Assembly (NCBI RefSeq): GCF_015207755.1
Contig: NZ_JADEWH010000026.1
Coordinates: forward strand, 1 to 39,555
DNA: 39,555 nt
Source of the DNA: Nodularia sp. LEGE 06071
GTDB lineage: Bacteria > Cyanobacteriota > Cyanobacteriia > Cyanobacteriales > Nostocaceae
Direction of reading: 5' to 3'
A program made the position numbers and the translations under genes. Positions 2,626 through 38,350 of this stretch are shown one piece after another (the stretch's first letter is position 1; each line of letters opens with the position of its first letter). Under the pieces are notes generated by a model. That model made no database searches, was not told the DNA's origin, and saw only the letters and a program-made list of their open reading frames with translations.

Positions 2626-3974
2626 GACGCACTAAAAGCACCCTACCCCTCAAAAGTAAAATTGAAGTTCCTTGGGACACCACAGACATCAAGAATGCCG
2701 ATTCTTCTCAATCCATGCCATTAGAGCAGATAAATCTGCCACCAACACAACCGCGCCGTTACTTTGACTCCGAAGCATTAAAGCAGTTAACCGAATCCAT
2801 CAAACAGCATGGCATCCTGCAACCCCTGCTGGTACGTCCCCTTGATGGAGAAAAACATGAATTAGTAGCAGGAGAGCGCCGCTATCGTGCTGCTAAAGAA
2901 ATCGGACTAAAAGTTGTTCCCGTTGTCATCAGAGAATTAGACGACAACGCAGCTTTTCAACTGGCACTGATAGAAAACTTACTTCGAGAAGACCTGAACC
3001 CAGTCGAAGAAACCGAAGGCATCCTGCAACTGCTGGCTTACAAACTCAATCGAAACATTGAGGAAATTCCCACCGCACTTTATCGCCTACAACGCGAACA
3101 GAAAAAAGCATCCACAGTCCTCCATAACGTTATAGACAAGGATAAAGTTGAGGGTGAAGCATCTACCCATAACGTTATGGGCGAAGTCGAAAGTGACTCG
3201 ATAACCAACGTAACTGGCAAGGAAAAAGTCGAGAGTGAGACATCTACCCATAACATTATGGGCGAAGTTGAAAGTGACTCAATAACCAACGTCACTGGCA
3301 AGGATAAAGTCGAAGGTAAGACATCTACCCATAACGTTATGGGCGAAGTTGAAAATGACTCAATAACCAACGTCACTGGCAAGGAAAAAGTCGAAGGTGA
3401 GACATCTACCCATAACGTTATGGGCGAAGTTAAAAATGACTCAATAACCAACGTAACTGGCAAGGATAAAGTTGAGGGTGAAGCATCTACCCATAACGTT
3501 ATGGGCGAAACCGAAAAAGATAACTCAGTCATCAATCAGGAGCCACCCGTAAACCCAGACATAAAAATCGTTTCGGAAGTATTTGATAGCTTAGGGTTAA
3601 TGACCTGGGAATCTTTCGTTAAAAACCGTCTGCCCTTATTAAACCTGACATCAGACATCCTTGAAGCACTAAGAAGAGGCGACCTGGAATACACCAAAGC
3701 CAAAGCCATCGCCCAGATTCAGGATAAAGAAGAGCGTGTTGCCTTTTTAGAACAAGCTATTGCCCAAAACTGGTCTTTAAGCGAAATCAAACAGCGCATT
3801 AGTGAAAAGAAAACCCCAACCTCTACCCCCAAAACCGAGTCTAACGATTACAAAGAGCGCTTTAATACTGCGACCACCAAGCTAAGAAAATCGCGGATTT
3901 GGTCAGACCCTAAGAAGCGCAAACAGATAGAAAAATTGCTGGCGCAACTGGAGACGCTGACCCAAGTTGAGTAA
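2622..3974 (+). CDS. parB: ParB family partition protein with internal tandem repeats
   Basis: This is the centromere-binding partner of ParA. Residues 33-130 form the ParB/Srx-like nucleotidase domain: RRYFDSEALKQL, ILQPLLVRP, the CTP-binding GERRYRAA motif (84-91) and ENLLREDLNPVEE. Residues about 310-395 (LMTWESFVKNRLPLLNL, GDLEYTKAKAIAQI, LSEIKQRI) form the helical DNA-binding part, and the C-terminus is basic. Between them, residues 175-288 hold four near-identical 27-residue repeats plus part of a fifth, each containing THN(V/I)MGE and ITNVTGK. As I recall the family, cyanobacterial ParB proteins carry a single HNVMG-type linker, so this one appears expanded by tandem duplication. At 450 residues it is longer than usual. 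It is the second gene of the parAB operon. Confidence 0.9.
   Translation: MRRTKSTLPLKSKIEVPWDTTDIKNADSSQSMPLEQINLPPTQPRRYFDSEALKQLTESIKQHGILQPLLVRPLDGEKHELVAGERRYRAAKEIGLKVVPVVIRELDDNAAFQLALIENLLREDLNPVEETEGILQLLAYKLNRNIEEIPTALYRLQREQKKASTVLHNVIDKDKVEGEASTHNVMGEVESDSITNVTGKEKVESETSTHNIMGEVESDSITNVTGKDKVEGKTSTHNVMGEVENDSITNVTGKEKVEGETSTHNVMGEVKNDSITNVTGKDKVEGEASTHNVMGETEKDNSVINQEPPVNPDIKIVSEVFDSLGLMTWESFVKNRLPLLNLTSDILEALRRGDLEYTKAKAIAQIQDKEERVAFLEQAIAQNWSLSEIKQRISEKKTPTSTPKTESNDYKERFNTATTKLRKSRIWSDPKKRKQIEKLLAQLETLTQVE
3144..3509 (+). repeat. 81-bp in-frame tandem repeat in parB (4 full copies plus a partial one)
   Basis: Copies begin at 3144, 3225, 3306, 3387 and 3468, the last truncated after about 42 bases. 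They differ by only a few substitutions, mostly GAT/GAA and GTC/GTT changes, so the expansion is recent. The period is a multiple of three, so copy-number change would leave the ParB frame intact. Confidence 0.95.
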
Positions 3975-9184: not shown

Positions 9185-11692
9185 CTAACTCAATACTTTA
9201 AACAGCCGCATTCCATTTGCAGTCACTAGCAGGGAAGTTCCTGTATCAGCTAAGACGGCGATCGCTAAACCAACAAACCCAAACGTCCCCAATAGCAAAA
9301 ATAAAGCCTTAGTTACCAGAGAAAAAACCACATTCTGTTGAATCACTGACACAGTACGTCGGCTTAAATCTACTGCATAAGCAAGTTGTCTCAAGTCACT
9401 ACCTACCAGCACCACATCTGCTGTCTCCAAAGCAATGTCAATTCCACCTACAGCAAAACTAATATCTGCCGTAGCTAAAGCTGGTGCATCGTTAATGCCA
9501 TCCCCAACCATACCTACTACTCCGTGACGACGCAACTGTTGAATTGCTTGCAGTTTATCTTCAGGTAACAGTTCTGCCTGATACTCTGTAATTCCAACTT
9601 GTTGGGCAATTTGCTTGGCCACAACAGTACGATCGCCTGTCAACATCACCAACCGCTTCAATCCAACCCGCTTCAATTGTCGCAGGGCTTCGGTGGCTTC
9701 CAAGCGGATACCATCAGAAAGTGCGATCGCTCCTAATAACCCTCCGTTCGTTCCTACTAACACCGGAATTTGACCAAGTTGTTCAATTTCAGTTAACAAA
9801 AATTCAGCTTCATCAGACAAGCAAATACCTTTGTCTGAAAACAACCGTCGATTACCAACCAAATACAACATCTGACTCAAGTTTGCCTGAATTCCTTTAC
9901 CGGGTAATGCTGTAAAATCAAGGGGTGTTTCTAACTCCAGCCCCAAATCTTGAGCCTTTGCCACAATAGCTTTTGCTAGGGGATGTTCAGACTGTTGTTC
10001 TAAGGAAGCGGCAATCAGTAATATCATGTCTGCATTCACCTTCCCCAAGTCATAAACCTGCTGCACAATGGGCAGCCCTTGTGTAATTGTGCCAGTTTTA
10101 TCAAAAGCAAGGGTAGTCAGATGTCCAGCAGTTTCCAGCGCATTACCCCCTTTAAATAAAACGCCCCGCCGAGTTGCCGCACCAATGGCACTGACAATTG
10201 AAACTGGGGTAGAAATGACTAAGGCACAGGGACAAGCAATTACTAGCATTACCAGTGCGCGGTAAAGCCAGACATTAAAAGGTTGAGCAAAAGCCAAGGG
10301 CGGTATTAGAGCAATGGCGATCGCTGCTAAAATCACTATCGGAGTGTAGACCTCTGCAAACTTATCCACCCACTGCTGTGAAGGTGCGCGGCTTTCTTGA
10401 GCTTGTTCCACCAAATTAATAATTTTGGCAACGGTTGTATCGCCAGAAGTGTGCGTAACTTTGACTTCTAAAAAACCGGTCTGATTTAAAGTGCCGGCAA
10501 AGACAGTATCTCCAACGGCTTTATCTTCTGGGATTGACTCTCCTGTAATTGGAGACTGGTCAATGGCACTGTTACCAGAAACAACCACACCATCCAACGC
10601 CACACGCTGTCCTGGTCGAATCGTCAAAACTTCACTTAGCTCAATACTTTCGACGGGAACTGTAAATTCCTGATTTTCTCGCTTAACTGTAGCAGTAGGT
10701 GGAGTCAAATCCATCAGTGAGCGAATTGCGTTGCGGGTACGACCAAAGGTGAAAACTTGCAATGTTGTGCCTAAAGAGAACAAAAAGACAACCAGCCCCC
10801 CTTCAAACCAATCACCTAAAATCACTGCCCCAATCACCGAAATAGTCATCAGCAGATTCATATCAGCGCGGCGCAAGCGCAACTCAAACAAACCAGCCCG
10901 TGCGATCGGATAGCCAGCAATTACTATACCAATGCCATAAAAAGCTCGTGCAATCCAGATGGGTAGCACTAGATATTGAGTAAGTAAACCTAAAACTATA
11001 CCTATACCTGCAAGTATGACACTCTGTCCTCGACGATTTTCAATCCAGAATCTCCAGCTGGTTAAGTCGGATTTTTGTTTTTGTTTGGACTTGTTTATTA
11101 GCTGAGAATGCTCGTGGTTATGGCTATAGTCATGGTCGTGATGATGGGAACTTGCTTCAACACCCTCCTCAACCGTGTAACCTAAATCTTGAATCCGGTC
11201 ATAAATTGCTTTCTCATTCACCAATTGTGGGTCATAGGATATATGCAATCTTTCGCTGGCAAAGCTGACCGATGCTTCTTGTACGCCTATTATCTTCTGC
11301 ACCCCAACCTCAATAGTTTTCGCACAACTGCCACAATCCATCCCGCTAATTTGTAACTGTAGCGTTCTCACAGGAGCTACATCTACGTTATGGTCATGAT
11401 TTAGGTGGTCACGGTCGTGTTCACCGCCACAGGAATGAGTATGCTGATGGGATTGCGCCTCATGACTTTGCTCTATCGTATAACCTAAACCTTTTATTTG
11501 GTCATAAATACTCTTTTCACTCAATAACTGTGGATCATAAGAAACCCTAGCTTTACCAGTTGTAAAGTTTACCGTTGCTTCTGTCACACCATGTAACTGT
11601 TGCAAAGCGACTTCAATTGTATTGGTGCAGCTTCCGCAGTCCATACCGCCAACTTGCAAAGTTTGGGTTTTGAGGTCAGGAGTTTGAGTCAT
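9185..11692 (-). CDS. P1B-type Zn2+/Cd2+/Pb2+-exporting ATPase
   Basis: Exports soft divalent metals across the cytoplasmic membrane. The 835-residue protein has two N-terminal heavy-metal-associated domains, each with MDCGSC (Cys19/22 and Cys120/123), followed by His-rich tails (77-101 and 182-196). It then has TGES (383-386), the metal-site CPC (487-489), the phosphorylated Asp in DKTGT (531-535) and GDGINDAP near residue 725. An Asp in the last membrane helix (LADTGTSLLV, Asp816) is the hallmark of ZntA/ZiaA/CadA-type pumps rather than copper pumps. His-rich linkers are typical of cyanobacterial ZiaA. An SmtB-type operator sits in its promoter, but no ArsR-family gene is in the window. Confidence 0.95.
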   Translation of the reverse strand: MTQTPDLKTQTLQVGGMDCGSCTNTIEVALQQLHGVTEATVNFTTGKARVSYDPQLLSEKSIYDQIKGLGYTIEQSHEAQSHQHTHSCGGEHDRDHLNHDHNVDVAPVRTLQLQISGMDCGSCAKTIEVGVQKIIGVQEASVSFASERLHISYDPQLVNEKAIYDRIQDLGYTVEEGVEASSHHHDHDYSHNHEHSQLINKSKQKQKSDLTSWRFWIENRRGQSVILAGIGIVLGLLTQYLVLPIWIARAFYGIGIVIAGYPIARAGLFELRLRRADMNLLMTISVIGAVILGDWFEGGLVVFLFSLGTTLQVFTFGRTRNAIRSLMDLTPPTATVKRENQEFTVPVESIELSEVLTIRPGQRVALDGVVVSGNSAIDQSPITGESIPEDKAVGDTVFAGTLNQTGFLEVKVTHTSGDTTVAKIINLVEQAQESRAPSQQWVDKFAEVYTPIVILAAIAIALIPPLAFAQPFNVWLYRALVMLVIACPCALVISTPVSIVSAIGAATRRGVLFKGGNALETAGHLTTLAFDKTGTITQGLPIVQQVYDLGKVNADMILLIAASLEQQSEHPLAKAIVAKAQDLGLELETPLDFTALPGKGIQANLSQMLYLVGNRRLFSDKGICLSDEAEFLLTEIEQLGQIPVLVGTNGGLLGAIALSDGIRLEATEALRQLKRVGLKRLVMLTGDRTVVAKQIAQQVGITEYQAELLPEDKLQAIQQLRRHGVVGMVGDGINDAPALATADISFAVGGIDIALETADVVLVGSDLRQLAYAVDLSRRTVSVIQQNVVFSLVTKALFLLLGTFGFVGLAIAVLADTGTSLLVTANGMRLFKVLS

Positions 11693-11730
11693 AGCAGCTT
11701 TAGAATCAAGGCGAAAAGTTAACTGCCAAT

Positions 11731-11768
11731 ATTATAAGAGAACAATTGAACAGTTGTTCAATTGAACA
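11731..11768 (-). promoter_or_regulatory. ArsR/SmtB-type operator over the metal ATPase promoter
   Basis: Perfect palindrome AATTGAACA-GT-TGTTCAATT at 11744-11763, overlapped by a second, TGTTCAATTGAACA (11755-11768). TGAACA-N2-TGTTCA is the core recognised by SmtB/ZiaR-type repressors. On the minus strand a perfect TATAAT (11731-11736) lies just downstream and a TTGAAC upstream, so a bound repressor would block RNA polymerase and metal would release it. Confidence 0.75.
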
Positions 11769-11809
11769 ATTGTTATCATTTTAGGGTGGGGGGTCAGATG
11801 AGCAATGGT

Positions 11810-11884
11810 ATTAAACTCAACGAATCGGTCACCCGACCCGTTGGTCTTCAAAACCGTGCGTAAAACTTTCGCTTTACACGGCTC
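11810..11884 (-). ncRNA. Group II intron domains V and VI
   Basis: Domain V (rc of 11851-11884) begins GAGCCGUGUAAAGC, has a GAAA tetraloop and returns as GUUUUACGCACGG, the catalytic hairpin layout. Domain VI (rc of 11810-11848) forms a 10-bp stem capped by GUGA; below it a single unpaired A between G and GUUU is the likely branch point, seven bases from the 3' end. Confidence 0.75.
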
Positions 11885-11922
11885 CTCAATGACTTGACCT
11901 TTGTCATAGGAACCTCTAACTA

Positions 11923-12457
11923 CTATCCCAACCACTCTTCTTCAGCGGGGGTACTTCCCCAAAGCTTTGAGTCTCGGTTGTCTTGAGCAGTTTTGCTATC
12001 ATGGCAATGACGGTGTAATACTTGGAGGTTGCCGTACCTATCCTTTTTGCCTTGTGACTTGGGGATAATATGGTCTACTTCGATTAAATCGTCTTCTCTA
12101 AAATACAATCCGCAGTACAAACACTTACCTTTCTGTTCTTTCAAAAGCTTTGCAACTCTCTTAGGAACTAGGGGGTGTTCTCCTCTTCTAGCACTCCAAT
12201 ATTTCAGGTTTCCGTCGAATGGGGATGCATTACCCTTAATTTTGATATGTCTAACAATTGGTTTGCTAGCATGGTTAATTAAAGTTTCTGCTACTTTTCC
12301 ATCTTTGGTTACTGAGAATACCCAATTGTCTCCGCCTATCGTATGCCAGTACTTACTGGATACCCATGCCCCTGATTTCTTGGCATGACGACGCTTCGCC
12401 CATCTGGAGAGCTTTTGATACACCATGTGGTCAAGCGTAGAAAATGTTTCTTTGCTT
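11923..12457 (-). pseudogene. Group II intron maturase, C-terminal fragment (domain X and HNH endonuclease)
   Basis: Only the last 175 or so residues survive. SKETFSTLDHMVYQKLSRWA followed by KRRHAKKS and KYWH is the maturase domain X signature. The end carries an HNH endonuclease: CLYCG, EVDHIIPKSQGKKDRYGNLQ and HRHCHDSK, with the second Cys pair and the His residues intact. An internal ATG at 12426 would allow a 167-residue freestanding HNH protein, but the frame continues upstream to 12457 with maturase-like residues, showing truncation rather than a separate gene. The reverse transcriptase domain is absent, so autonomous retrohoming is not possible. Confidence 0.8.
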
Positions 12458-12838: not shown

Positions 12839-13519
12839 TCAATACCTAGAAGAGATTGCCCCATCCTCCAAATGCACAATCCGATCTGCTACATCCAAAA
12901 TTCGGTTATCATGGGTCACCAGCAAAATCGTGCAGCCTTGCTCCTGTGCGAGATCCTGCATTAAATCTACCACTGCCCGACCAGATTTACTATCGAGTGC
13001 AGCTGTCGGCTCATCAGCTAAAACCAAACGTGGACGACTGACTAACGCCCGCGAGATCGCCACCCGTTGCTTTTGTCCTCCAGACAAATCATGCGGGTAA
13101 TAATCAATATGATCGTCCAAACCGACCTGCTGCAAAATCTCCTTAGCGCGTTGCTGCATCATTTCACGACTGCAATTGGGATGTACCTCTAGTCCCATCA
13201 TAACGTTTTGTTGTACAGTCAAACTATAATGCAGGTTGTGTGCCTGGAAAATATAGCCGTTGTTGCGACGAGCATAGACCAACTTTTTTGCACTGGAGCC
13301 GCAGAGTTCCTCACCAAGAATCTTGATACTGCCTTCCTGAGCAGCCCGCAAACCACCCACTAACGTCAGCAATGTTGTTTTTCCTGATCCTGATGGACCA
13401 GTCAGAATTACGACTTCCCCCGTTTTGACCTGCAAATTGATGTTGCACAATACCTGCTTTTTCAGATTGCCGTGACCGAAGTAGTGATTGAGGTGACGAA
13501 TATCAATGGCATATTCCAT
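12839..13519 (-). CDS. devA: DevA-family ABC exporter ATPase
   Basis: Provides ATP hydrolysis for a MacB/DevBCA-type exporter. The 226-residue subunit has Walker A GPSGSGKTT (41-49), a Q-loop (FQAHNLHYSL), the signature LSGGQKQR (145-152), Walker B LVLADEP (165-171) and the switch His203 in VTHD. The N-terminal IRHLNHYFGHG stretch is typical of DevA rather than generic LolD proteins. It is the last gene of the devBCA set, 12 bases after devC. In Anabaena, DevBCA exports heterocyst glycolipids with TolC; paralogues serve other lipids or stress. Here the partner genes suggest export of the product of the adjacent acyl-modifying cluster. Confidence 0.93.
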   Translation of the reverse strand: MEYAIDIRHLNHYFGHGNLKKQVLCNINLQVKTGEVVILTGPSGSGKTTLLTLVGGLRAAQEGSIKILGEELCGSSAKKLVYARRNNGYIFQAHNLHYSLTVQQNVMMGLEVHPNCSREMMQQRAKEILQQVGLDDHIDYYPHDLSGGQKQRVAISRALVSRPRLVLADEPTAALDSKSGRAVVDLMQDLAQEQGCTILLVTHDNRILDVADRIVHLEDGAISSRY

Positions 13520-13531: not shown

Positions 13532-14767
13532 TTAGAAAATATCAGCAGGATCGGCAGATTGAAGTTTCCGCGTAGCGATCGCACCGGAAATCAAGCACAT
13601 AACAATTGTCGTGATTAGTATCCCCATTGCACGGGCAACGGTTAGGTACATTGGTAACCTCGTTGCCTCTCGCGTTAGATAGTACAACAGACTGGAAATA
13701 GCCACACCGGGGATAAATCCCAGTACCGCTAGGATTACTGCTTCCTCCAACACAATTCCCAATAAATAACGCTGTTGATAACCCATCGCTCGGAAGGTTG
13801 CATATTCCTGAAGATGGGAATTGACATCCGTGGATAGCACTTGGTAGACCAAAATTACGCCTACGATAAAGCCCATTGCCACACCTAGGCGAAAGATAAA
13901 CCCAATAGGGGTATTGGTCGCCCAGTAGTTTTTCTCGAAATCGGCAAATTCTTGTAAAGTGTACACATTTACATCATCGGGTAAATGATGCCGCAAGGCT
14001 TGGGCAACTTGGTTTGGGTCATTGCCAGGAGTAACTTTGATTAGACCTAGACTTATATTGCCAGCTCCCCGTTGAGGATAGAGCCGTAGCAACGTTTCCG
14101 CACTGGTCACCAAACTACCGTCTACACCAAACGAGGAACCGATCGCAAATAAACCCCGAATATGCTGTTTGTACCCTTTGATTTCCGTAGTCACGGGTTT
14201 GTTCTGGGCAAAATCAGCCAGCATTGCTTTGTAGTCACCTCGCGTATTCTGGTCAAAGAGTAATGTGTCTGGAATTTTCAATTCATCAAGATTTCGATTA
14301 ATATCCGGTCGGTTAATAAACTTTTGACTGGGATCAGCACCCAGTAATAGCATCATGCCTTGTTTATGCGTTGTAGGATGCTTCCAAGTTGCCAATACCA
14401 CATAAAGTGGATTGACCAATGCAACTCCTGGAACATCCAATGCCTGGTACAGCCGTCGCCGCGAGAACTCGTTAGGATACAACATATTCCGTATTTGTGG
14501 GCTGCTCAGCACAATATCCGCATTTAAGGTTTCGTGAATCCGCACTGAACTTTGGAACAGTGCCCCCTGAAACCCTAATTGCATTAACATCAAAATGTCT
14601 GCAAAAGCAACTCCCGAAATTGCTAGGATGAACGTCCCACGTTTATGCTTCAATTGCAGCCATCCCAAAGGCGTTCGACGCCGAAAGCGTTGCCAGAGAT
14701 TAAGAGGTTTTGGGGCAGTGGTACTATTCATTGAAATTGTAGATTCAGGCTTGTGAGAGAGGTTCAT
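13532..14767 (-). CDS. devC: DevC-family ABC exporter permease
   Basis: A 411-residue FtsX/MacB-fold permease. One membrane helix near residues 45-65 (TFILAISGVAFADILMLMQL) is followed by a periplasmic domain of about 230 residues (KPVTTEIKGYKQHIRGLFAIG, SLVTSAETLLRLYP). Three further helices follow (FRLGVAMGFIVGVILVYQVL; AVILAVLGFIPGVAISSLLYY; MGILITTIVMCLISGAIA). The RRRTPLGWLQLKHKRGT start is typical of DevC. Its ATG overlaps the devB stop (14764-14767, ATGA), so translation is coupled. Confidence 0.93.
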   Translation of the reverse strand: MNLSHKPESTISMNSTTAPKPLNLWQRFRRRTPLGWLQLKHKRGTFILAISGVAFADILMLMQLGFQGALFQSSVRIHETLNADIVLSSPQIRNMLYPNEFSRRRLYQALDVPGVALVNPLYVVLATWKHPTTHKQGMMLLLGADPSQKFINRPDINRNLDELKIPDTLLFDQNTRGDYKAMLADFAQNKPVTTEIKGYKQHIRGLFAIGSSFGVDGSLVTSAETLLRLYPQRGAGNISLGLIKVTPGNDPNQVAQALRHHLPDDVNVYTLQEFADFEKNYWATNTPIGFIFRLGVAMGFIVGVILVYQVLSTDVNSHLQEYATFRAMGYQQRYLLGIVLEEAVILAVLGFIPGVAISSLLYYLTREATRLPMYLTVARAMGILITTIVMCLISGAIATRKLQSADPADIF

Positions 14768-16080
14768 TGAACTCCCTCCTGTCCCAAGTCTATTGACACT
14801 TCTACTTGCAAATTAGTTAGATTCATTACCTTCTGACTTGATTTTTCATCAAGCTGCACCCGCACCTCCACAATGCGGGCATCAATATTCGCAGTAGGGT
14901 CTGTGTTGATAACATTTCGCCGTTGTACAATATGCCCGATTTCTGTAACTGTTCCTTGCAACGTTTGAGCAATTGATGTGGCTCGAACGGTTACTCTCTG
15001 CCCAGGTCTAATCTTAACTACATCACTTTCGTAAACCTCAGCTACCGCATCCATCTGCTGCGTTTGCCCTAAATCCAAAATTCCCAGTGGATCACCCATA
15101 CTACGAATAGTTTCCCCTGGACGGGTATGAATTTTCAGCACTTGTCCTGCTTGCGGCGACCGAATATAGGCAGTTTCCAAAATTGCTTCAGCTTGACGCA
15201 AATTCGCTTTTGCTTCGGTAAGCTCGGCTTGGGAAATCTGGATATCCACCGAGCGTACTTCCACAATCCCATCAAGAGTCGCTTCAGCACTCTTAATATT
15301 CTTGAACTGTCCTTCTCGAATTCGCTCCAGTGTTGCCTGAGCCTCTGCTATTTCTGCCTGACCTGAAGTCCGAATTTGGTTTAGCATGGCTTCGGCTTCT
15401 GCCCACTGCTGTTTTATAGTTTCTGCTTTCAGTCTGGCACTATCGTACTGTGATGCCGAAATAGCACCACTTTTATAAAGCTGCTCAAATCGATCTCTAT
15501 CCGTCTTTGCATTACGATACTCAGCTTCCCAGCGTTTTACCATTGCTTGTTTTGCTGCCTCCTCTCCTTGCAAATTGGCACGGATGCGGTTAATCTTGGA
15601 TTGTTGTGCTGTAATCTGATTTACCCGCTCAATCTGCAATTGTTCCACCTGGGCAGCTTGTGCCTGGATTTCTCCCTGTTTCGCACCCGCCTTTACTTTA
15701 GCCAACTGGGCTTCCACAATTCGCACTCGGCTCTGGGACTGCTCTACTGCTGCTTGATACTTTTCTTGTAGATCTAAAACTGCTAGTATCTGTCCTGCTC
15801 TTACTCGATCTCCTGTTTTGACCAGCAACTTCTCCAATCTTGCCCCAGCCGTTCCAGCCGGAGCCGCTACCTGCACAATTTCCCCTGATGGCTCTAACCG
15901 TCCCAGAGCACTGACTGTTAATAAGGGTGTAGGTGTTTCCACTTCATTCGGAACTTCACTTCCCCAAAAATGTCGTATCGTCAGTACCGATCCCACCACT
16001 ACTGTCATTGCAACTAAGCCTGAAACGAACAGCCAACGCTTCGCTTTGCTTGAACTTGGATTAGAAATTACACTACTCAT
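14764..16080 (-). CDS. devB: DevB-family membrane fusion protein (HlyD family)
   Basis: A 438-residue periplasmic adaptor that links DevC to an outer-membrane TolC channel. A single N-terminal membrane anchor (about residues 15-34) is followed by a lipoyl half-motif (LVKTGDRVRAGQILAVLD), a long Gln/Glu/Ala-rich coiled-coil hairpin (about 110-300), the second lipoyl half (AYIRSPQAGQVLKIHTRPGE) and a beta-barrel domain. The set order devB-devC-devA matches the classic cyanobacterial operon. No tolC-like gene is in the window, so a chromosomal TolC is presumably used. An 88-base gap separates it from the SRPBCC gene upstream. Confidence 0.92.
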   Translation of the reverse strand: MSSVISNPSSSKAKRWLFVSGLVAMTVVVGSVLTIRHFWGSEVPNEVETPTPLLTVSALGRLEPSGEIVQVAAPAGTAGARLEKLLVKTGDRVRAGQILAVLDLQEKYQAAVEQSQSRVRIVEAQLAKVKAGAKQGEIQAQAAQVEQLQIERVNQITAQQSKINRIRANLQGEEAAKQAMVKRWEAEYRNAKTDRDRFEQLYKSGAISASQYDSARLKAETIKQQWAEAEAMLNQIRTSGQAEIAEAQATLERIREGQFKNIKSAEATLDGIVEVRSVDIQISQAELTEAKANLRQAEAILETAYIRSPQAGQVLKIHTRPGETIRSMGDPLGILDLGQTQQMDAVAEVYESDVVKIRPGQRVTVRATSIAQTLQGTVTEIGHIVQRRNVINTDPTANIDARIVEVRVQLDEKSSQKVMNLTNLQVEVSIDLGQEGVQ

Positions 16081-16168: not shown

Positions 16169-16693
16169 TCAACCAAACAAGCTTTCTACTCGCTGGTGAA
16201 CAGCCAACAAAACAGCAGGTATATCATTACTGAGAAAGTGGTTGAATACGGGGGCTGGAATAATTGGCTTAGGTAAAACTAAAAAGTCATAAATAAGCTC
16301 AACACCACGCTGGGAATGCGATGAACTTTTTGTTTCTAACCGCCAGAAGCCAGAGAACTCCCTTAAGTCACCCTCAATCAACTGATAGTGAACTTCACAA
16401 AGATAAGTTTCCCTGATATCGACAAGTGAACGAGCAGACACCTTGATCCCCGCTAAGCTCTTTGTCCGAATCTGTTCTAAGCGAATACCTCCGGTAGGAT
16501 GCTCTATGCGGCGGCTCTGAGTCATGTTGGGAATAAATTCAGGAAAAGATTCGTAGTCTGTGATGATTTGCCATACTTGCTCTAGAGAGTAAGGAATTTC
16601 GATTTTGGCCAAGATATGTCGTCTTTGTCCCTCTAACTTATCGATTTTTAGGTTGACATCGTATTGCTGACTGAGAATTTGTGGTCTGCCCAT
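16169..16693 (-). CDS. SRPBCC / START-like (polyketide cyclase, COQ10-type) protein
   Basis: A 174-residue helix-grip protein: ILAKIEIPYSLEQVWQIITD, then YESFPEFIPNMTQSRRI, the usual DYxxFPxF/IP signature, with a C-terminal helix ending NDIPAVLLAVHQRVESL. Such proteins bind hydrophobic molecules in a deep cavity; some act as aromatases/cyclases or lipid chaperones. No catalytic residue can be assigned. AGAGGA precedes the ATG. It sits 18 bases after the monooxygenase gene, which suggests it binds or shapes the same lipophilic product before export by DevBCA. Confidence 0.8.
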   Translation of the reverse strand: MGRPQILSQQYDVNLKIDKLEGQRRHILAKIEIPYSLEQVWQIITDYESFPEFIPNMTQSRRIEHPTGGIRLEQIRTKSLAGIKVSARSLVDIRETYLCEVHYQLIEGDLREFSGFWRLETKSSSHSQRGVELIYDFLVLPKPIIPAPVFNHFLSNDIPAVLLAVHQRVESLFG

Positions 16694-16711
16694 GTCTAGA
16701 TTTTTCCTCTG

Positions 16712-17794
16712 CTACTTTTTAACAACAAGTTTTTCTGGATTGATTGAGGTTTTCAAATGCTTCTCAACCGCAGAAATCACATACTCAGCATCTTTCGGAA
16801 GTCCCATAACTAACTCTGAGGCACGACAACTCAACCATTTGCGTCCAAGAACAAATAGCCCAGGCTCCGGAGTTATACCATACTCTTCTATAAAGCCCGC
16901 TTCATTAATGCAGTGGGGTAGTTTCAGCCAGTCTGTGTGATCCCGATAACCAGTTGACCAAATGACAACATCAGCATCAGCACTTTCCCCTTGTTCAAAA
17001 AAGACGGTTTGTCCTGAACAGTCTTGTGCTTTTCCGACAATACGAACTCCCATTTTCTTGAGGTTTCGATTGTTAAAGTTGCCGCAAGGAACTGGGTTAC
17101 GCCGTTGGAGGATCTTGGCTACCACACTACGTTTATCAGCAACTAATATTCCAATTTTGTTAAGCCACCAGAAAATATCCTTACCAAGGATAGTACCTGG
17201 AGGTAAACCGCGAGATTTACCAGTTGATAATGTAACCTTGCATACACTAGCAAGTCCACCCGCAATCTGACGCCCTGTCGCGCCATCACCCACAACCACG
17301 ACCCTACTACCTTCTGGGACAAGCGTCAGACTTTGGAGAGTGCCATCCAACTGCAACACATCATCTGATAGACCAGTGCTAATCGACGGAATGTGAGGAA
17401 CTTGATTTGAACCTGTTGCATTGATAACTGACTTTGTTGATAGGCGATCGCCATCTTTTAAGGTAACGATAAATCGGTCTTGTTCTTTCGTAAGGCTGAC
17501 AACCTCAGAATTCTCACGGGTGGATACTTTAAAGGTATGAGCAAATGCTTTCAAATAATCCCCCATTTCATTCGCAGTTGGGAAGCCATTGGGATCTCCA
17601 GGAAATGGCAGCCCAGGTAGTCCGCAAAACTGTCGAGACGTAAATAATCTCATACTTTTCCAGCGATTATGCCAGACCTGCCCAATCTGCTCTCGCTCTA
17701 AAACAATGTAAGAAATACCTCGTTTATTAAGCAGATGGGCCGCATATAAACCACTCTGCCCAGCACCAATAATCACGCAATCAGAATTCAGCAT
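16712..17794 (-). CDS. FAD-dependent NAD(P)H monooxygenase (CzcO/YUCCA-like)
   Basis: A 360-residue flavoprotein. The FAD-binding fingerprint CVIIGAGQSGLYAA is at residues 6-19, and the NADPH-binding VVVVGDGATGRQIAGG is near 165-180. The intervening segment GQVWHNRWKSMRLFTSRQFC and a late WSTGYRDHTDW (ATGY-like motif) complete the class B flavin monooxygenase layout, though the canonical FxGxxxHxxxW motif is not evident. It could oxygenate nitrogen, sulfur or a carbonyl. AAGGAGG lies just before the ATG, which overlaps the acyl carrier protein stop by one base (TAATG), so the two are tightly coupled and the ACP-bound chain may be its substrate. Confidence 0.85.
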   Translation of the reverse strand: MLNSDCVIIGAGQSGLYAAHLLNKRGISYIVLEREQIGQVWHNRWKSMRLFTSRQFCGLPGLPFPGDPNGFPTANEMGDYLKAFAHTFKVSTRENSEVVSLTKEQDRFIVTLKDGDRLSTKSVINATGSNQVPHIPSISTGLSDDVLQLDGTLQSLTLVPEGSRVVVVGDGATGRQIAGGLASVCKVTLSTGKSRGLPPGTILGKDIFWWLNKIGILVADKRSVVAKILQRRNPVPCGNFNNRNLKKMGVRIVGKAQDCSGQTVFFEQGESADADVVIWSTGYRDHTDWLKLPHCINEAGFIEEYGITPEPGLFVLGRKWLSCRASELVMGLPKDAEYVISAVEKHLKTSINPEKLVVKK

Positions 17795-18081
17795 TAACCT
17801 TCCTCCTTCAGTTCAATAGCCTGTGTAAAATTTTGCTGTAAGTAATTAATCAAAGAGTTAATAGTCGGGTAATCGAAGGCCAATGCAGGATCAATCGTTA
17901 CCTGAAGATGTTCTGCGATAATAGCAGTAATTTCTACATGGGCAACGGAATCAAGACCCAAACTAGAGAACGAATTGTCAAGATGCTCTGTAGATGAAAA
18001 ACCGGGTACTTTTGCAGAAATGTACTCAATTAACTTCTCAACAAGAGCATCGTTATTTTTGATTACACACTCAGTTGTCAT
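17794..18081 (-). CDS. Acyl carrier protein
   Basis: A small carrier of 95 residues with the phosphopantetheine site SLGLDSVAHVE (Ser45 from the chosen start), followed by FDYPTINSLINYL, the usual helix III. It would hold the acyl chain as a thioester. Two in-frame ATGs exist (18102 and 18081); the second has AAGGAAG eight bases upstream and is preferred. It lies between the acyl-AMP ligase and the monooxygenase, so the ligase probably loads it. A phosphopantetheinyl transferase is not in the window and must be supplied by the host. Confidence 0.9.
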   Translation of the reverse strand: MTTECVIKNNDALVEKLIEYISAKVPGFSSTEHLDNSFSSLGLDSVAHVEITAIIAEHLQVTIDPALAFDYPTINSLINYLQQNFTQAIELKEEG

Positions 18082-18216
18082 TAAAATTTCTTCCTTTGTC
18101 ATTAAAGAGACTTAATCTGCAATAAAATTAAGAAATGCTATCAAAGGACTGAGAATTAACCATGAGAAAGTGTATCTCTGGGCGATCCCCTAAGAACTTC
18201 ATGGATAGAGATTGAA

Positions 18217-19917
18217 CTAATTCTGACTAAACCCATTAGAAATTATCAGATTTCTACAGGCAGCTCGTTTTATTTTACCACTACTTGTTTTTGGAATAGT
18301 ACCTGGTTTCACCAATACCAATTGGTCAAATACAATATTATGACGATCCATAACAGCTTCCTGCAAATCTTTGATCAACTCGCGATGGTCACATTCATTA
18401 AAAAGCTTTCGCTGTATTTCTACAATCGCTGCTAGTTTTGATTCATTACCAACATCAATCGTAAAAACAGAAGCACCATTATTTCCTGATGCATACTTGT
18501 AACTATTACAAGTATGCTCAATGTCATAAGGATAAACGTTACGTCCGCATATAATTAACATCTCCTTGATGCGTCCTGTAACAAAGAGTATTCCTTCATG
18601 AATAAACCCCATATCTCCAGTCCGTAAGTAGTGTCTACCATCGGGGTGCTTTAGTTGTGCATGGAAACACTCTTCCGTTTTTTCTTCGTTCTTCCAGTAA
18701 CCTTGCGCGACTGACGCTCCCGATACCCAAATTTCACCAATTTTCCCCTGCTCACATACCTCAGTACTATCGGGGTCAACAATACGTACCTGGAGATGAG
18801 AACTGATCAAACCACAGCCAACGAGGGTTTTTCCTCCATCACTGCTTTCTTGTACCTCACCACGATCAAATGTGTTCTTATCCAAGGTTAAAATCTGTGT
18901 ACCTGCGCCTTGGGCAGTACCAGACACAAACAACGTAGACTCAGCTAGACCATAGCAGGGTGAAAAAGCCTTTGGATCAAAACCACACCGCTGAAATTTA
19001 GCCGAGAAAGCCTCCATTGTATCAAGATTGATCGGCTCGGAGCCATTTAAAGCCACTTTCCAACAACTCAAGTCTAAGTGCGAAAGGTCTTCACTGTCCT
19101 TGATAAACTTGACACAATGCTCATAACCAAAGTTAGGAGATGCGGAACTATGAAGACGATAGTGGGAAATGAGTTCAAGCCAGCGTAGCGGACGCTGAAC
19201 AAAGTTCATGGGTGGCATAAAAATATATGTTCCACCCAGAAACAACGGTTGTAACATTTGCCCGATTAGCCCCATATCGTGGAACTGCGGCAACCATCCC
19301 CCTCCGATCAGTCCTTTGTGATAGTTATAGGCTTCCTGAATGGCTTTTTGATTATCCACAATATTGGAATGACTAACCATTACCCCTTTAGGCAAACTGG
19401 TTGAGCCAGACGTATATTGAATGAAAGCCAGCATGTCTGGGTTCAGGATGGGTAATGCGATGTCTGTTGGTGCTGATTGATATTCATCTATCCAGATCCA
19501 ACTTCTTTCAGATAATTCTGGTATTTCTTGTAGTTGTTGCTCTAGCTGAATTTTTGTAGCAGACGTTGTCAGAATTGTCTCTACTCCAGCATCATCTAGA
19601 ATTGCCACCGTACGTTCCATTTGCTGAGCATTACGAGACAAATTTAGAGGAATTGCGATGGCTCCAGAGGCAAGACAGGCCAGAAAATTAATGACAAAAT
19701 CAAGACCATTGGGAAACAACAGTGCAATGGGTTGACCCACGTATCTTCGATGAAGTAAAAGCTGAACACGTTGGAATACAAGCTCGTGCAATTCCCGGTA
19801 AGTTAGCTTTTGTGCAGTTTCAACTCCGTAGGGTTGAAAAATACATGCTAGGGATTCACCCTGTTGTTTCGCATGCTCAAAAATCACATCACATAACAGT
19901 TGGTGATTATTTTCCAT
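18217..19917 (-). CDS. Fatty acyl-AMP ligase
   Basis: Activates a fatty acid with ATP to acyl-AMP and passes it to an acyl carrier protein. The 566-residue protein has the P-loop-like YTSGSTSLPKG (about 168-178), the FAAL-typical GGGWLPQFHDMGLIGQMLQP, GLAESTLFVSG, LRTGDMGFI, and the C-terminal catalytic Lys region PKTSSGKIKRAACR. The strength of the FAAL-type motifs makes acyl-CoA synthetase less likely. The longest frame starts at TTG (19932), but ATG at 19917 is more likely. The downstream neighbour is the ACP (136 bases), the upstream one the cysteine desulfurase (27 bases). Confidence 0.92.
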   Translation of the reverse strand: MENNHQLLCDVIFEHAKQQGESLACIFQPYGVETAQKLTYRELHELVFQRVQLLLHRRYVGQPIALLFPNGLDFVINFLACLASGAIAIPLNLSRNAQQMERTVAILDDAGVETILTTSATKIQLEQQLQEIPELSERSWIWIDEYQSAPTDIALPILNPDMLAFIQYTSGSTSLPKGVMVSHSNIVDNQKAIQEAYNYHKGLIGGGWLPQFHDMGLIGQMLQPLFLGGTYIFMPPMNFVQRPLRWLELISHYRLHSSASPNFGYEHCVKFIKDSEDLSHLDLSCWKVALNGSEPINLDTMEAFSAKFQRCGFDPKAFSPCYGLAESTLFVSGTAQGAGTQILTLDKNTFDRGEVQESSDGGKTLVGCGLISSHLQVRIVDPDSTEVCEQGKIGEIWVSGASVAQGYWKNEEKTEECFHAQLKHPDGRHYLRTGDMGFIHEGILFVTGRIKEMLIICGRNVYPYDIEHTCNSYKYASGNNGASVFTIDVGNESKLAAIVEIQRKLFNECDHRELIKDLQEAVMDRHNIVFDQLVLVKPGTIPKTSSGKIKRAACRNLIISNGFSQN

Positions 19918-19944
19918 ACAACCTATTTCCAAATTCCTTCGCTA

Positions 19945-21111
19945 TCACGCTACAAGACTAATTTCCAAAAGCTGACTGGTACAGGATTCAAGGGATTGAA
20001 CAAATTTCTGTATATCATCTAGTGTTGTGAAACGACCAAAGCTGACACGAATCGAACCTTGAATTTCCCTTTCACTCATTCCCATTGCTTCTAGTACATG
20101 AGAGAGTTTTTTAGTTTTGTTGTTGCTACAGGCTGAACCAATGGACACGATGATTCCACTCTTGACTTCCATCAAAGCCGCCAATGCTTCAGCCCTAGCC
20201 CCAGGAATCAGGATATTTAATGTGTTGGAAATACTGTTCTCGTACTCAGTCAATCCATTGAACCTGAAATTGATACGAGATTTATTCAAAAGTTTCATTA
20301 GATACCTTTTACATTCCCAATTATGGGCATCCCATTGGTCAAGATTGGAATCAGCTTCTTCAGCAGCCTTAGACAAGCCAACAATAGCAACCAGATTTTC
20401 AGTTCCGGCGCGCCAACCCATTTCTTGACCACCACCATGAATGAGAGGAGAAAACCCTTCTATATCTCTTACATACAAGCCACCAATTCCTTTTGGCCCA
20501 TGAAATTTATGTCCTGAAAAAGATAGATAGTCTATACCGAGTTTCTCAACATTCACTCTGCGTTTACCAATTACCTGGACGCCATCAACGTGAAACTTGA
20601 TATTCCTCTGACGTGTTATTTGAGCGATGGCTTCCACAGGTTGGATAACACCGGTTTCGTTATTGGCATGCATCATTGACACCAACTGGGTATCAGGTCG
20701 TATGGTGCTGACAATGTCATCAATCGCTACAGCACCATTAGCTTGAGGGAATACGAAGGTTACCTCAAATCCAAACTTTTCAGCATAATACTTTACAGTA
20801 TTCAGGACTGATGGATGCTCAATAGCAGTAGTGATAATATGTCCAGGTGTTTTAAAGTGTTGAAGCAACGTACTTTTAATCGCCCAATTATTTGCTTCAG
20901 ATCCACCAGATGTAAAAAATATTTTTGCCGCCTCTGTCCCTAATAACCGCGCTACATTTTCTCTAGAACGGTTTAGTATATCTTTGTTGGCTGCTGAATA
21001 CCTGTTAATACCAGAAGGGTTAGCAAATAAATCTATAGTTTCCTTCATTACCTGTGCTACGTCATCTGATACTGGAGTAGTGGCGTTATAGTCGAAATAC
21101 CCTGAAATCAT
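19945..21111 (-). CDS. Cysteine desulfurase (IscS/NifS-like)
   Basis: Removes sulfur from L-cysteine as an enzyme persulfide using pyridoxal phosphate. The 388-residue class V aminotransferase has SGGSEANNWAI (68-78), the cofactor-stacking His99 (EHP), HVDGVQVIG (Asp176), the PLP Lys202 in SFSGHKFHGPKG and the persulfide Cys328 in GSACSNNK. The Cys loop is of the long IscS/NifS type, suited to handing sulfur to a scaffold or carrier. AAGGAGA precedes the ATG. It is separated from the IscU-like gene by 295 bases holding a branched hairpin. Its place among acyl-activating genes suggests sulfur supply to a product rather than housekeeping iron-sulfur assembly; that is inference. Confidence 0.93.
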   Translation of the reverse strand: MISGYFDYNATTPVSDDVAQVMKETIDLFANPSGINRYSAANKDILNRSRENVARLLGTEAAKIFFTSGGSEANNWAIKSTLLQHFKTPGHIITTAIEHPSVLNTVKYYAEKFGFEVTFVFPQANGAVAIDDIVSTIRPDTQLVSMMHANNETGVIQPVEAIAQITRQRNIKFHVDGVQVIGKRRVNVEKLGIDYLSFSGHKFHGPKGIGGLYVRDIEGFSPLIHGGGQEMGWRAGTENLVAIVGLSKAAEEADSNLDQWDAHNWECKRYLMKLLNKSRINFRFNGLTEYENSISNTLNILIPGARAEALAALMEVKSGIIVSIGSACSNNKTKKLSHVLEAMGMSEREIQGSIRVSFGRFTTLDDIQKFVQSLESCTSQLLEISLVA

Positions 21112-21245
21112 TCGGTTCTCCTTAAACTTTTCAATGACAAGCTACAAGCTACCTAGTTCAATGACCTCTGATTGAACGATTTATTTCCAAGTTCGACTTG
21201 AACTCAATCTCCATTAAATTCAATCCCCGCTAATCGTGAAACCTA

Positions 21246-21336
21246 TATAGGGCAGTAGTTTTAATTTTTCTATGTCACTGATCTTCAGTGACATAGAAAA
21301 AGTTTTTGCCAAGAAGCTAGGGGTTCTTGCCCTATA
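21246..21336 (-). other. Branched inverted-repeat structure in the iscU-desulfurase gap
   Basis: Outer arms 21246-21253 (TATAGGGC) and 21329-21336 (GCCCTATA) enclose two hairpins. One is a perfect 17-bp stem with a 3-base loop (21265-21301). The other is a 5-bp stem (21311-21315 with 21324-21328). As minus-strand RNA this folds as a three-way junction in the 295-base gap before the desulfurase. T-runs lie on the wrong side for an intrinsic terminator. It could be a cis-regulatory RNA, an RNase processing site or a short mobile repeat. Confidence 0.5.
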
Positions 21337-21406
21337 AAGAGACTTGAGGAATTAAGTTCTTAATTTTGGATAAAGTCGAGCTAATAAAACTTCCTTCCCT
21401 ACGGCA

Positions 21407-21793
21407 TCATAGCTGCTGAATTTTGTCCGAACTATTATTAGTAAAAGTTGCTTTCAGCTTATCGTGAAGTTCGTGCAGAATATCGAGACAATGATGCTGC
21501 GAGGGTTCTAACTTCCCCAAAATTGTATCAAGTTCACTTCTGTCATAATTGACTACCATTTCGATCTCGTTGCCGTTAATCAAAGAACAGAAAATATTAG
21601 CCGTAGCAATTGAAGTAGCACAACCCCAAGCTTGAAACACTCCTCTTGTAATTCGATTACCCTCCATTGCCATCTGAATCCTAATTCGATCACCACAAAC
21701 AGAATTTCCTACTTCCAATTCAAGATGCGGATTCTGGATTTCACCACTATGTTTGGGGTCAGAAAAGTTCGTAATGATAATGTCATTGTACAT
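21407..21793 (-). CDS. IscU/NifU N-terminal-type scaffold protein
   Basis: A 128-residue protein with all three scaffold cysteines: Cys33 with its partner Asp35 in VCGDRIRIQM, Cys58 in WGCATSIA, and Cys102 in HHCLDIL. These normally receive persulfide sulfur from IscS and assemble an iron-sulfur cluster. The usual LPPVK recognition loop for the HscA chaperone, expected around Cys102, is absent. The NPxxVG start region is degenerate (NPHLELEVGNSVCGD). It pairs with the adjacent desulfurase, so the two probably form one sulfur-transfer module. No protein in the island has an obvious iron-sulfur motif, so the acceptor is unknown. Confidence 0.88.
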   Translation of the reverse strand: MYNDIIITNFSDPKHSGEIQNPHLELEVGNSVCGDRIRIQMAMEGNRITRGVFQAWGCATSIATANIFCSLINGNEIEMVVNYDRSELDTILGKLEPSQHHCLDILHELHDKLKATFTNNSSDKIQQL

Positions 21794-21863
21794 AGTTTTA
21801 GCTTAATAAGGGACAGGGAAAATTGATGCTTTACCTACCTTTTAGGTGAACAGTTTGCACAGA

Positions 21864-23051
21864 CTAAGCAGAAACTACAGGACAGGTGGTGTTGTTCGCT
21901 TTTCCAGCTTCTAAACCATCCAATTGTTTATCAAGATTGACAGCACAACACCCAAACTCGCTCGATTCAGGCAAGCGCATAATGTACTGTAGCCGTTGAC
22001 CACTTCGCCAAGATTTATTTTCTTTTGGGAGCAGTCTTACTAAGTCTTCAGTTAGAATAAATCCCGGAGTGGAGATGGCAAGAGGATCTAAGATCGCCAA
22101 TTGCCCTGTTTCACCAATTGCAACTTCCTTATCCAACTGTTTTGGATCTCGTACAGAGAAATGAACGAATGGAGAAACATGCTTGACACCATGCTCATCA
22201 TCGATCACTACAACATTCGATTCTACAAGCGCATACATATCTCGTATTTGACTTTTCTCAACACCAAGATATTCCATGCATTCATTGTTGAAATCGACTC
22301 TGGAAATCATCTGACCGCTAAAGCGTTTCCATCCACCTAGGGTAATTACATAACTATTTTTGTCGAGTTGAACCTTTTGGTTAGTCGCTTTCAGGAAGCT
22401 AATAAAGCGATGGATAATAAAAGGTGGACCAATAACGTGCCGATCAAATTTGTTAGACCATTCATTCAACTGCATCAAGGCTTCTTCTGGTACAAATCGA
22501 TCTTTTTTAACCATAAAGCGATGAGTATCCAGCAAGCCAGCCAGCATATTCAGAGCCTTAATCATGCCCATTTCTGGAATCTCTTCTGTAGAGGGACATA
22601 AATATAATCCAGCCCCTTTAGAAATTTTGAAGAATTCGCGGTACATAGCATAGACACCTAAAACCGCGTAATCTACTGTATCTGAGCAACGACGGGCAAC
22701 GCTTGGAATGCCAGAAGTACCCGTGCTACGCATTTCCATTTCAATCGAACTTAGGCTTACCGATAACAATTTGTGACTATTGGCAGACTTGAAAATACTA
22801 ATAGGAACCAGCGGAATTTTCACCAAATCTTCAGGCGTTTGAATGGAATCGGGCGTAATTCCTTTATCATTACAGGAACCCCTGAAGAACTCATTGTTGC
22901 TATAGTGAAAGGCAAACGAGTTCTTAATCAAGGATGTCTTAAATGCGAGCAGTTTTGAGTCTGGCATCGCATACAATTCGCTAACAGAAGAAAGGGCAAC
23001 TTTGATTGGATCAAAGCCTTCTTCTTTCAAGGTTGAAAATAAGTCAATCAC
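21864..23051 (-). CDS. LuxE-like acyl-protein synthetase
   Basis: A 395-residue member of the LuxE/acyl-protein synthetase family of adenylating enzymes. STGTSG (109-114) is the ATP-loop motif, and GGWKRFSGQ, DMYALVESN and GETGQLAILDP follow in the expected order. LuxE carries its acyl group on a Cys near the C-terminus; here FGCCAVNL (Cys368/369) sits at the matching place. LuxE normally feeds the LuxC reductase, and no luxC, luxD or luxAB is present, so light production is not indicated. Translation starts at GTG with GAGGAG eight bases upstream. It is the first gene of the leftward cluster. Confidence 0.88.
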   Translation of the reverse strand: MIDLFSTLKEEGFDPIKVALSSVSELYAMPDSKLLAFKTSLIKNSFAFHYSNNEFFRGSCNDKGITPDSIQTPEDLVKIPLVPISIFKSANSHKLLSVSLSSIEMEMRSTGTSGIPSVARRCSDTVDYAVLGVYAMYREFFKISKGAGLYLCPSTEEIPEMGMIKALNMLAGLLDTHRFMVKKDRFVPEEALMQLNEWSNKFDRHVIGPPFIIHRFISFLKATNQKVQLDKNSYVITLGGWKRFSGQMISRVDFNNECMEYLGVEKSQIRDMYALVESNVVVIDDEHGVKHVSPFVHFSVRDPKQLDKEVAIGETGQLAILDPLAISTPGFILTEDLVRLLPKENKSWRSGQRLQYIMRLPESSEFGCCAVNLDKQLDGLEAGKANNTTCPVVSA

Positions 23052-33189: not shown

Positions 33190-33677
33190 CCGAAACTTTT
33201 ATTGAGTAATTTCCAGTAAAAAATTAGGTCTTGTTAGATATAAGACGGACAAAAGTTCTGTAAGATCAGGCAAGAACGTAAATCAAGCTTGTAATGGAGG
33301 TAAATATACAACAGCACAAAAATTAAAAAGGCAAAGTGCTACTAGGTAGTGAACACTTTGCCTGAAAGTAAAAATTAAATATCTCGGAGCGGGGTTTATC
33401 TAAACACGACCAAACAAGTGGAACGAAGGTGAGATGTCTGACCACTAATTGGTTACTGTAAGTGATTAGTCCGCGCTGCCTACTCATATTATATGAGTTG
33501 CTGTGGCAATTTGAAAATTTCTGTTGGCAGATTTTGACAAATAAATTGAACAATCTTTTTTGAGCATCTCAAAAAAAAAGCCTAAGCAAGCAAAACAGTA
33601 AATCTCATAGATATCAGGTGTAGCAGCGCGATAACCCCCTCCGAATACTAAAAACCAAGTATTTGAGGGAAAAAACC
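33190..33677. promoter_or_regulatory. Rep leader with palindrome and antisense-oriented terminator
   Basis: No gene in 488 bases. A 10-bp hairpin (33329-33338 with 33354-33363) has its T-rich tail on the minus strand, so it terminates leftward transcription. The palindrome at 33482-33498 contains a perfect minus-strand TATAAT (33488-33493). These two fit a short countertranscript of about 150 bases running leftward across the rep leader. TTGACA at 33534 is a possible plus-strand promoter element. Confidence 0.45.
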
Positions 33678-38288: not shown

Positions 38289-38350
38289 GTTGCTATATTC
38301 ATCCGATGCCGACTTTAGCCGACTGTAGCTAACTCTTGCTAACCATAGCC

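Follow-up and report, generated by a model that had tools for sequence, protein, structure and literature searches.

A 39,555-base contig of the cyanobacterium Nodularia sp. LEGE 06071 (one complete contig of the host assembly, G000:C26; this whole stretch is hereafter called the window) carries a row of genes built around a LuxE-family acyl-activating enzyme, an IscU-like carrier of sulfur or iron–sulfur (Fe-S) clusters and an IscS-like cysteine desulfurase. Comparison with other bacteria revealed that this gene set is conserved across three phyla, that its LuxE has exchanged its partner LuxC for IscU and IscS and has an extra cysteine, that the catalytic residues are intact and that the accompanying exporters vary. 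From these features we infer the chemistry and the product: with roughly even chances of being correct, we propose a dedicated biosynthesis and export cassette that would add cysteine-derived sulfur to an activated fatty acyl group. The features of the window cassette are as follows.

21864..23051, minus strand: LuxE-family acyl-adenylating acyltransferase, 395 aa, GTG start (PF04443, 1e-38, 133.7 bits)
21407..21793, minus strand: IscU/NifU-N-like sulfur or Fe-S carrier, 128 aa (PF01592, 7.6e-20, 71.8 bits)
21265..21301, no strand: perfect 17-bp inverted repeat with a 3-nt loop inside the IscU–IscS gap, a possible transcription break
19945..21111, minus strand: IscS/NifS-type cysteine desulfurase, 388 aa (PF00266, 1.2e-75, 255 bits)
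18217..19932, minus strand: fatty acyl-AMP ligase (FAAL), 571 aa (PF00501, PF23024)
17794..18102, minus strand: free-standing acyl carrier protein (ACP) with an L50-D51-S52 site (PF00550, 3.6e-12)
16712..17794, minus strand: SmFMO-type flavin monooxygenase (FMO), 360 aa (PF13738)
16169..16693, minus strand: SRPBCC/polyketide-cyclase-fold protein (PF03364, 3.6e-15)
14764..16080, minus strand: DevB-type membrane fusion protein (TIGR02971, 313 bits, cut-off 129)
13532..14767, minus strand: DevC permease (TIGR01185, 478 bits, cut-off 290)
12839..13519, minus strand: DevA ATPase (TIGR02982, 360 bits, cut-off 296)

An earlier note, made from the window sequence alone, had described LuxE, the IscU-like and IscS-like proteins, FAAL, ACP, FMO and SRPBCC as contiguous and co-directional and followed by DevBCA. 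This arrangement was confirmed: the genes run in that order on the minus strand from 23051 to 16169 and continue through DevB, DevC and DevA to 12839, with intergenic gaps from LuxE to DevA of 70, 295, 12, 114, −1, 18, 88, −4 and 12 nt, all below 90 nt save those between FAAL and ACP (114 nt) and between IscU and IscS (295 nt). The DevA, DevB and DevC proteins all exceed their curated NCBIfam cut-offs.

A DNA-level search of plasmids for the cassette gave no match; a search of plasmids with the LuxE protein matched 14 Priestia plasmids at 48–49% identity, and one such locus (L002) has the order AhpD-like protein, FAAL, FAD oxidoreductase, ACP, LuxE, IscU, IscS, DinB. We then have 45 further loci (Cyanobacteria 1, Pseudomonadota 32, Bacillota 12) from a scan of a genome collection that used two LuxE peptide patterns only and was blind to the neighbouring genes; with the Priestia plasmid these make 46 loci, and with the window 47 triad sources. 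The earlier note had proposed co-occurrence in other genomes as a check on its grouping, and the grouping held: LuxE, IscU and IscS follow directly upon one another in the same orientation in 45 of the 46 loci; ACP occurs in 38 of the 46, FAAL in 37 and FMO in 37. The gap between LuxE and IscU is −4 to 98 nt in 43 of the 45 loci with an intact triad (the outliers are L004, 599 nt, and L039, 416 nt), and the sole exception to the triad is a contig of a metagenome-assembled genome (L036) on which a truncated LuxE gene adjoins a DDE_3 transposase gene. Since the triad is kept together so widely over three phyla, the grouping is not due to chance, and an accidental neighbourhood on one plasmid is ruled out.

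For ACP and FMO, a tblastn match was counted if it lay on the LuxE strand and started no more than 9 kb from the LuxE start, and the FAAL count excludes L040, L047 and L048, whose AMP ligases match FAAL queries at 24–27%. All counts rest on tblastn-guided frames, as a simple gene caller missed LuxE in the G+C-rich loci L016, L025 and L028. Cut, split or mis-framed rows were left out of the residue counts given below (LuxE of L036 and L039; IscU of L039; IscS of L039 and L017; FAAL of L026, L039 and L045; ACP of L039; FMO of L010 and L039).

The order LuxE–IscU–IscS–FAAL–ACP–FMO is common to the window, the other cyanobacterial locus (L004) and 29 of the 32 Pseudomonadota loci, the three exceptions being L023, which lacks FMO, L026, truncated by the contig end, and L036, which is cut. 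Among the 13 Bacillota loci, four have FAAL–FMO–ACP–LuxE–IscU–IscS, two have FMO–ACP–LuxE–IscU–IscS, six have LuxE–IscU–IscS followed by a pair of U32-family (UbiU/UbiV-like) genes, and the last, L039, keeps all six genes arranged as in Pseudomonadota, with wider gaps and a split IscS. A gene 70% identical to the window SRPBCC gene occupies the matching position in L004, and no BLASTP alignment was obtained between the window and Priestia ACPs. LuxE was found in the host alone among 100 genomes of its nearest kin, itself included, and again in the host alone (1/386) at E ≤ 1e-40 among 386 cyanobacterial genomes; Nostocales LEGE 12452, from a second genome collection outside the 386-genome result, also carries a LuxE of this clade.

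The window LuxE matches the LuxE of PDB entry 7xc6 (chain E) at E = 2e-33, and its AlphaFold model (mean predicted local distance difference test score, pLDDT, 88.6) has a PaaK-type fold; against the NCBIfam LuxE equivalog NF052244 it scores 146.7 bits, below the cut-off of 550. All 45 clade members compared have S109-T110-G111-T112, G114 and C368-C369. LuxE supplies LuxC in the classical systems, and two comparison panels conform to this. First, among seven distant plasmid LuxE loci (panel a, 23–33% identical), LuxC was present in six and IscU/IscS in none. Second, 197 genomes of the order to which Photobacterium sanctipauli belongs were searched for PF04443; 30 of the 36 matches were fetched and examined with flanks of about 1.5 kb (panel b). 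Three of these 30 LuxE proteins have the motif GCC and all three loci have IscU and IscS (L146 is new; L149 and L151 are re-draws of contigs already known), whereas the 27 loci without GCC include 25 with LuxC and none with IscU/IscS. IscU and IscS were found in 46 of the 47 triad sources. LuxC, sought in them with one query from each of four comparison loci, was found in none, and its absence rules out a luminescence-type aldehyde pathway. The LuxE tree places 46 cluster proteins on one side of a branch and 10 others on the opposite side (Shimodaira–Hasegawa-like approximate likelihood ratio support 99). Taken together, these counts show that LuxC has been replaced by IscU/IscS as the partner of this LuxE clade.

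The alignment of the window LuxE with 7xc6 chain E extends to the GCS motif of the latter, whose cysteine, C364, we take to be the acyl cysteine. Although phmmer pairs this cysteine with C368 of the window protein, in a MAFFT alignment an ungapped count back to a conserved arginine in the Bacillota row L038 puts the acyl cysteine at C369, and for this reason C368 is taken as the added residue. It is thus proposed, and not certain, that C368 is the clade-specific addition and C369 the acyl site. A single cysteine occupies this site in four panel-a proteins and in 26 of the 27 panel-b proteins without GCC, the motif of L122 being unreadable. The pair begins a C-terminal helix of the window model, where residues 361–370 are less certain (mean pLDDT 62).

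Beyond the triad, the window FAAL has solved relatives that include FadD23, FadD32, FadD28 and 3pbk (a fatty acyl-adenylate ligase); it bears a DIP2-type C-terminal domain and scores 422 against an NCBIfam subfamily cut-off of 775, below threshold. Two more FAAL paralogs (38% and 43%) lie elsewhere in the host (G000:C19, 67290–75047) one on each strand and separated by about 4 kb. ACP residues L50, D51 and S52 are each conserved in 37 of 38 rows. The solved structures closest to the window FMO are 4usr, 4c5o, 4a9w and 4usq (nearest PSFMO, SMFMO and CFMO), and these three enzymes oxidise sulfides in vitro according to PMC4220118. Upstream of FMO by one or two open reading frames, two loci (L041, 7885–8394; L043, 7908–8414) encode a small protein of one BLAST family, and the L043 copy matches PrdB/GRDB reductase models. 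The Cellvibrio loci L018 and L019 carry a gene for a MaoC-like dehydratase-domain protein immediately before LuxE (Pfam annotation on the L018 copy).

Six loci without FMO (L037, L038, L040, L042, L047 and L048) carry a UbiU-like protein and a four-cysteine partner. The UbiU-like protein of L038, taken as representative, matches PF01136 and reaches 40 bits with the UbiU model against a cut-off of 440; its UbiV-like partner has four invariant cysteines (36, 199, 212 and 216 in L038), and the model of this partner (pLDDT 75) matched a single structure type at E ≤ 0.001, a weak U32 fold match. The UbiV cysteine motif CXnCX12CX3C, as given in PMC6747719, is reproduced with its spacing in five of seven UbiV-like rows; in the other two, both clostridial, the middle interval is longer. 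Across 44 scored sources (L026, L036, L039 and L146 being left out of this scoring) FMO occurs alone in 36, the U32 pair alone in six, both in one (L043) and neither in one (L023). We read this distribution as perhaps the exchange of an O2-dependent step for an O2-independent one. FMO relatives 31–35% identical to the window FMO occur elsewhere in the L037 and L040 genomes; none was found in the L042 genome.

An alternative that we regard as unlikely, though deserving of weight, is that the sulfur becomes attached to an acyl-chain carbon (as in a beta-thiol made on ACP), with LuxE merely activating or releasing an acyl chain. FAAL–ACP is present in most loci, and an electrophilic enoyl chain could be provided by the acyl-CoA dehydrogenase of L038, L040 and L042 or by the MaoC-like protein of L018 and L019. 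However, the constant partner of IscU–IscS is LuxE, not FAAL–ACP or a dehydrogenase, and the clade-specific change sits at the LuxE acyl site.

The cassette IscU and IscS look competent, since their key residues are retained: C33, D35, C58, H101 and C102 of IscU are invariant in 45 of 45 rows and align with C37, D39, C63, H105 and C106 of E. coli IscU, and C328 and K202 of IscS are invariant in 44 of 44 and align with C328 and K206 of E. coli IscS. The window IscU has LEPSQ in place of LPPVK, the chaperone-recognition motif of IscU, which is present in all ten IscU-type rows (E. coli and nine others) and absent from one NifU row and seven SufU-type or other rows. No equivalog cut-off is reached by the pair (IscU, 41.6 against 192.4; NifU_clost, 68.6 against 187.9; NifS, 360 against 531). 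Cluster and housekeeping copies split with one change on both the IscU and the IscS tree, with branch supports of 81 and 0, respectively. A role in general Fe-S assembly only is ruled out, because the host has separate SufB/SufD-type and NifU/NifS-type genes on another contig (C2) and because LuxE is the constant neighbour. The earlier note had named such a role as a refuting condition, and the outcome favoured its reading, the pair not being the sole Fe-S machinery of the cell. A second IscS-like gene lies soon after FMO in Xenorhabdus anantnagensis (L035, 11216–12394).

A more restricted Fe-S role, that IscS and IscU assemble a cluster for a cassette enzyme (the UbiU/UbiV-like pair or LuxE) and the product gains no sulfur, strikes us as rather improbable. 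It is consistent with the retention of all cluster ligands in IscU and with the seven loci whose UbiU/UbiV-like pair has invariant Fe-S-type cysteines (judged by the UbiV motif in PMC6747719), and in three of 20 cassette genomes the cassette IscU is the only NifU_N match, while a fourth genome has just one more, below cut-off. On the other hand, IscU and IscS are equally constant in the 36 scored sources that have FMO without the U32 pair, no Fe-S family scored above cut-off among the other window cassette proteins, LPPVK is replaced in IscU, and the same 20 genomes have an additional IscS-type gene in 19 cases and an additional NifU_N gene over cut-off in 16. Locus L004 also speaks against it, as a gene for serine O-acetyltransferase (CysE; 17535–18401; TIGR01172, 251 bits, cut-off 211) lies co-directionally after SRPBCC and before two ABC-2-type permease genes, which would raise the cysteine supply and is expected if the cassette consumes much cysteine. 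We consider it very unlikely that LuxE instead places its acyl group on an IscU or IscS cysteine as a regulatory modification that tunes Fe-S or persulfide supply, with a sulfur-free small molecule as the product. LuxE enzymes are indeed acyl-protein synthetases and the IscU cysteines are invariant, but FAAL, ACP, FMO and exporters adjoin the triad in most loci, which favours a metabolite pathway.

The exporters, assigned from the cluster map with representative loci annotated, are of several types. Eighteen loci have an MMPL-type exporter, behind which there often come a LolA-like protein and then a third one that has no Pfam match (in L018 it is of DUF1302 type); eight Xenorhabdus loci have an MFS transporter with an HlyD-type fusion protein, Lysinibacillus-type loci have MFS, L004 has ABC-2-type permeases, L047 and L048 have FtsX-type proteins and the window has DevBCA. 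The association of different exporters with one core suggests a secreted, probably lipophilic product. An OsmC-like protein is encoded near six Xenorhabdus clusters (L027, L029–L031, L033 and L034) and an AhpD-like protein in four Bacillota loci (L002, L039, L044 and L046); it is possible that these neighbours protect against a thiol-reactive product.

For a cassette that thiolates acyl groups, we propose the following course of events. IscS would mobilise cysteine sulfur in persulfide form and pass it to IscU, while LuxE would adenylate a fatty acid and take it up on C369, in the manner of the LuxE of bioluminescence. The acyl group would not go on to LuxC to be reduced; LuxE would instead move it to persulfide sulfur on C368 or IscU, and a thiocarboxylic acid (or acyl persulfide) would be released by reduction or by formation of a C368–C369 disulfide. 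FAAL would load ACP with the same acyl chain or another one for tailoring or coupling, FMO or, in other loci, the UbiU/UbiV-like pair would oxygenate the product, possibly on sulfur, and DevBCA or another exporter would secrete the lipophilic product. We infer a thiocarboxylate lipid as this product. The earlier interpretation, an oxidised and exported lipid made with two carboxyl-activating enzymes and a dedicated sulfur donor, matches the anatomy of the window and is partly supported: because FAAL, ACP and FMO are not universal, two activators are no fixed requirement, and the constant LuxE–IscU–IscS core, the absence of LuxC, the extra cysteine and the UbiU/UbiV-like pair of the six FMO-less loci had been missed.

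Our more specific proposal, which we hold tentatively and would place somewhat short of an even chance, is that LuxE–IscU–IscS constitutes a new class of acyl-thiolating enzyme, a bioluminescence-type acyl-protein synthetase for which an Fe-S-type persulfide relay replaces LuxC and whose vicinal cysteines join acyl group and persulfide within a single active site to yield fatty thiocarboxylic acids or acyl persulfides; oxygenation by FMO or the O2-independent UbiU/UbiV-like enzymes would then give a new exported lipid class spread over three phyla and plasmids. Several observations weigh against the proposed thiolation. The choice between C368 and C369 depends on the alignment, and the extra cysteine could be structural instead. 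The cluster/housekeeping split has no support on the IscS tree, and a relative of CysE occurs in only one of 47 sources. No FMO was found at E ≤ 1e-15 in the cluster or genome of Photobacterium lipolyticum (L023), no FAAL, ACP or FMO lies near the core in L037, L038, L040 and L042, and L040 has upstream only a ligase of acetyl-CoA-synthetase type; with some loci thus devoid of nearby FAAL, ACP and FMO, it is uncertain what becomes of the acyl group, and the proposal does not account for FAAL–ACP alongside another adenylating enzyme. The FMO relatives oxidised sulfur in model substrates, and the hairpin within the IscU–IscS gap makes a single transcript uncertain in the window.

Few routes to thiocarboxylic acids are known to us. 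If LuxE–IscU–IscS makes thioacids, it would do so by a route other than a CoA-transferase with ThiS-like carriers, Fe-S assembly proteins would have been diverted to small-molecule synthesis, and perhaps an oxygen-dependent step would have been exchanged for an oxygen-independent one. A GCC-motif LuxE beside IscU would then be a single marker predicting sulfur lipids in Cyanobacteria, in Pseudomonadota including Xenorhabdus, Pseudomonas and Shewanella, and in Bacillota including Priestia plasmids. The open-licence literature contained no description of this gene set among the matches listed.

The window and L004 LuxE proteins are 81% identical and fall, on the LuxE tree, within a 13-member set with 11 gammaproteobacteria (support 99); the IscS tree recovers the same 13 (support 99). 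It is most likely that the cassette was exchanged between marine gammaproteobacteria and cyanobacteria, in either direction. The host contig looks like a mobilisable plasmid, as judged from the following genes.

1870-2625 (window): ParA
2622-3974 (window): ParB
33663-36614 (window): DUF3854 protein
39045-39443 (window): NikA/MobC-like protein

No terminal overlap indicating circularity was found at 16–500 bases. The ParB-like gene contains, between its N-terminal and helix-turn-helix domains, an 81-bp unit (27 aa) repeated 4.6 times in tandem (3137–3509), and a 205-bp tandem repeat of two copies, 96% matching, lies upstream of the MobC-like gene (38341–38760). Just beyond DevA, the same strand encodes an HNH protein and a heavy-metal P-type ATPase that has two HMA domains (9185–12426).

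How does the cassette compare with known systems? The ISC, NIF and SUF systems (IscS–IscU, NifS–NifU, SufS–SufU) have homologous, adjacent desulfurase and carrier genes with matching key residues; they differ in that the ten window genes include no other Fe-S assembly gene, and in the LEPSQ motif and sub-equivalog scores of the cassette pair. The sulfenicin pathway reportedly uses a flavin S-hydroxylase to form an acylsulfenic acid; it may be related chemistry, the possible common logic being formation of a thioacid followed by flavin-dependent S-oxygenation. UbiU–UbiV, described in PMC6747719 as an O2-independent hydroxylase, resembles the pair found in seven loci, whose second protein has four invariant cysteines; the window has no such pair, which replaces or joins FMO in other loci and scores low (L038 UbiU, 40 against 440).

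The PtmA3–PtmU4 thioacid cassette of thioplatensimycin (Dong et al., 2018; PMC6006322) comprises an acyl-CoA synthetase, a type III CoA-transferase and ThiS-like carriers, and shares the logic of activating a carboxylate and then transferring sulfur from a protein carrier to give a thiocarboxylic acid. Membership in that system is ruled out, as neither a type III CoA-transferase nor a ThiS-like family appears in the Pfam results for the ten window genes (smaller open reading frames lay outside the scan). Paulomycin, which bears an isothiocyanate, also pairs a cysteine desulfurase with an ACP, an acyl-CoA synthase and an acyl-CoA dehydrogenase (PMC4425429), a likeness that would suit an FMO acting on nitrogen and a product of isothiocyanate or thiohydroxamate type. 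To this last alternative we give hardly any weight: paulomycin employs a ThiF-like protein, and LuxE does not occur in that paper (IscU was not searched for there), whereas the ten window genes include no ThiF-like gene and the IscS-type gene is their only member of the aminotransferase family. Finally, the LuxE of the lux fatty acid reductase (7xc6 chain E) shares with this clade the PaaK-like adenylating fold, the STGTSG-type motif and the C-terminal acyl cysteine, and the clade is set apart from it by IscU–IscS in place of LuxC and by an extra invariant cysteine beside the acyl cysteine.

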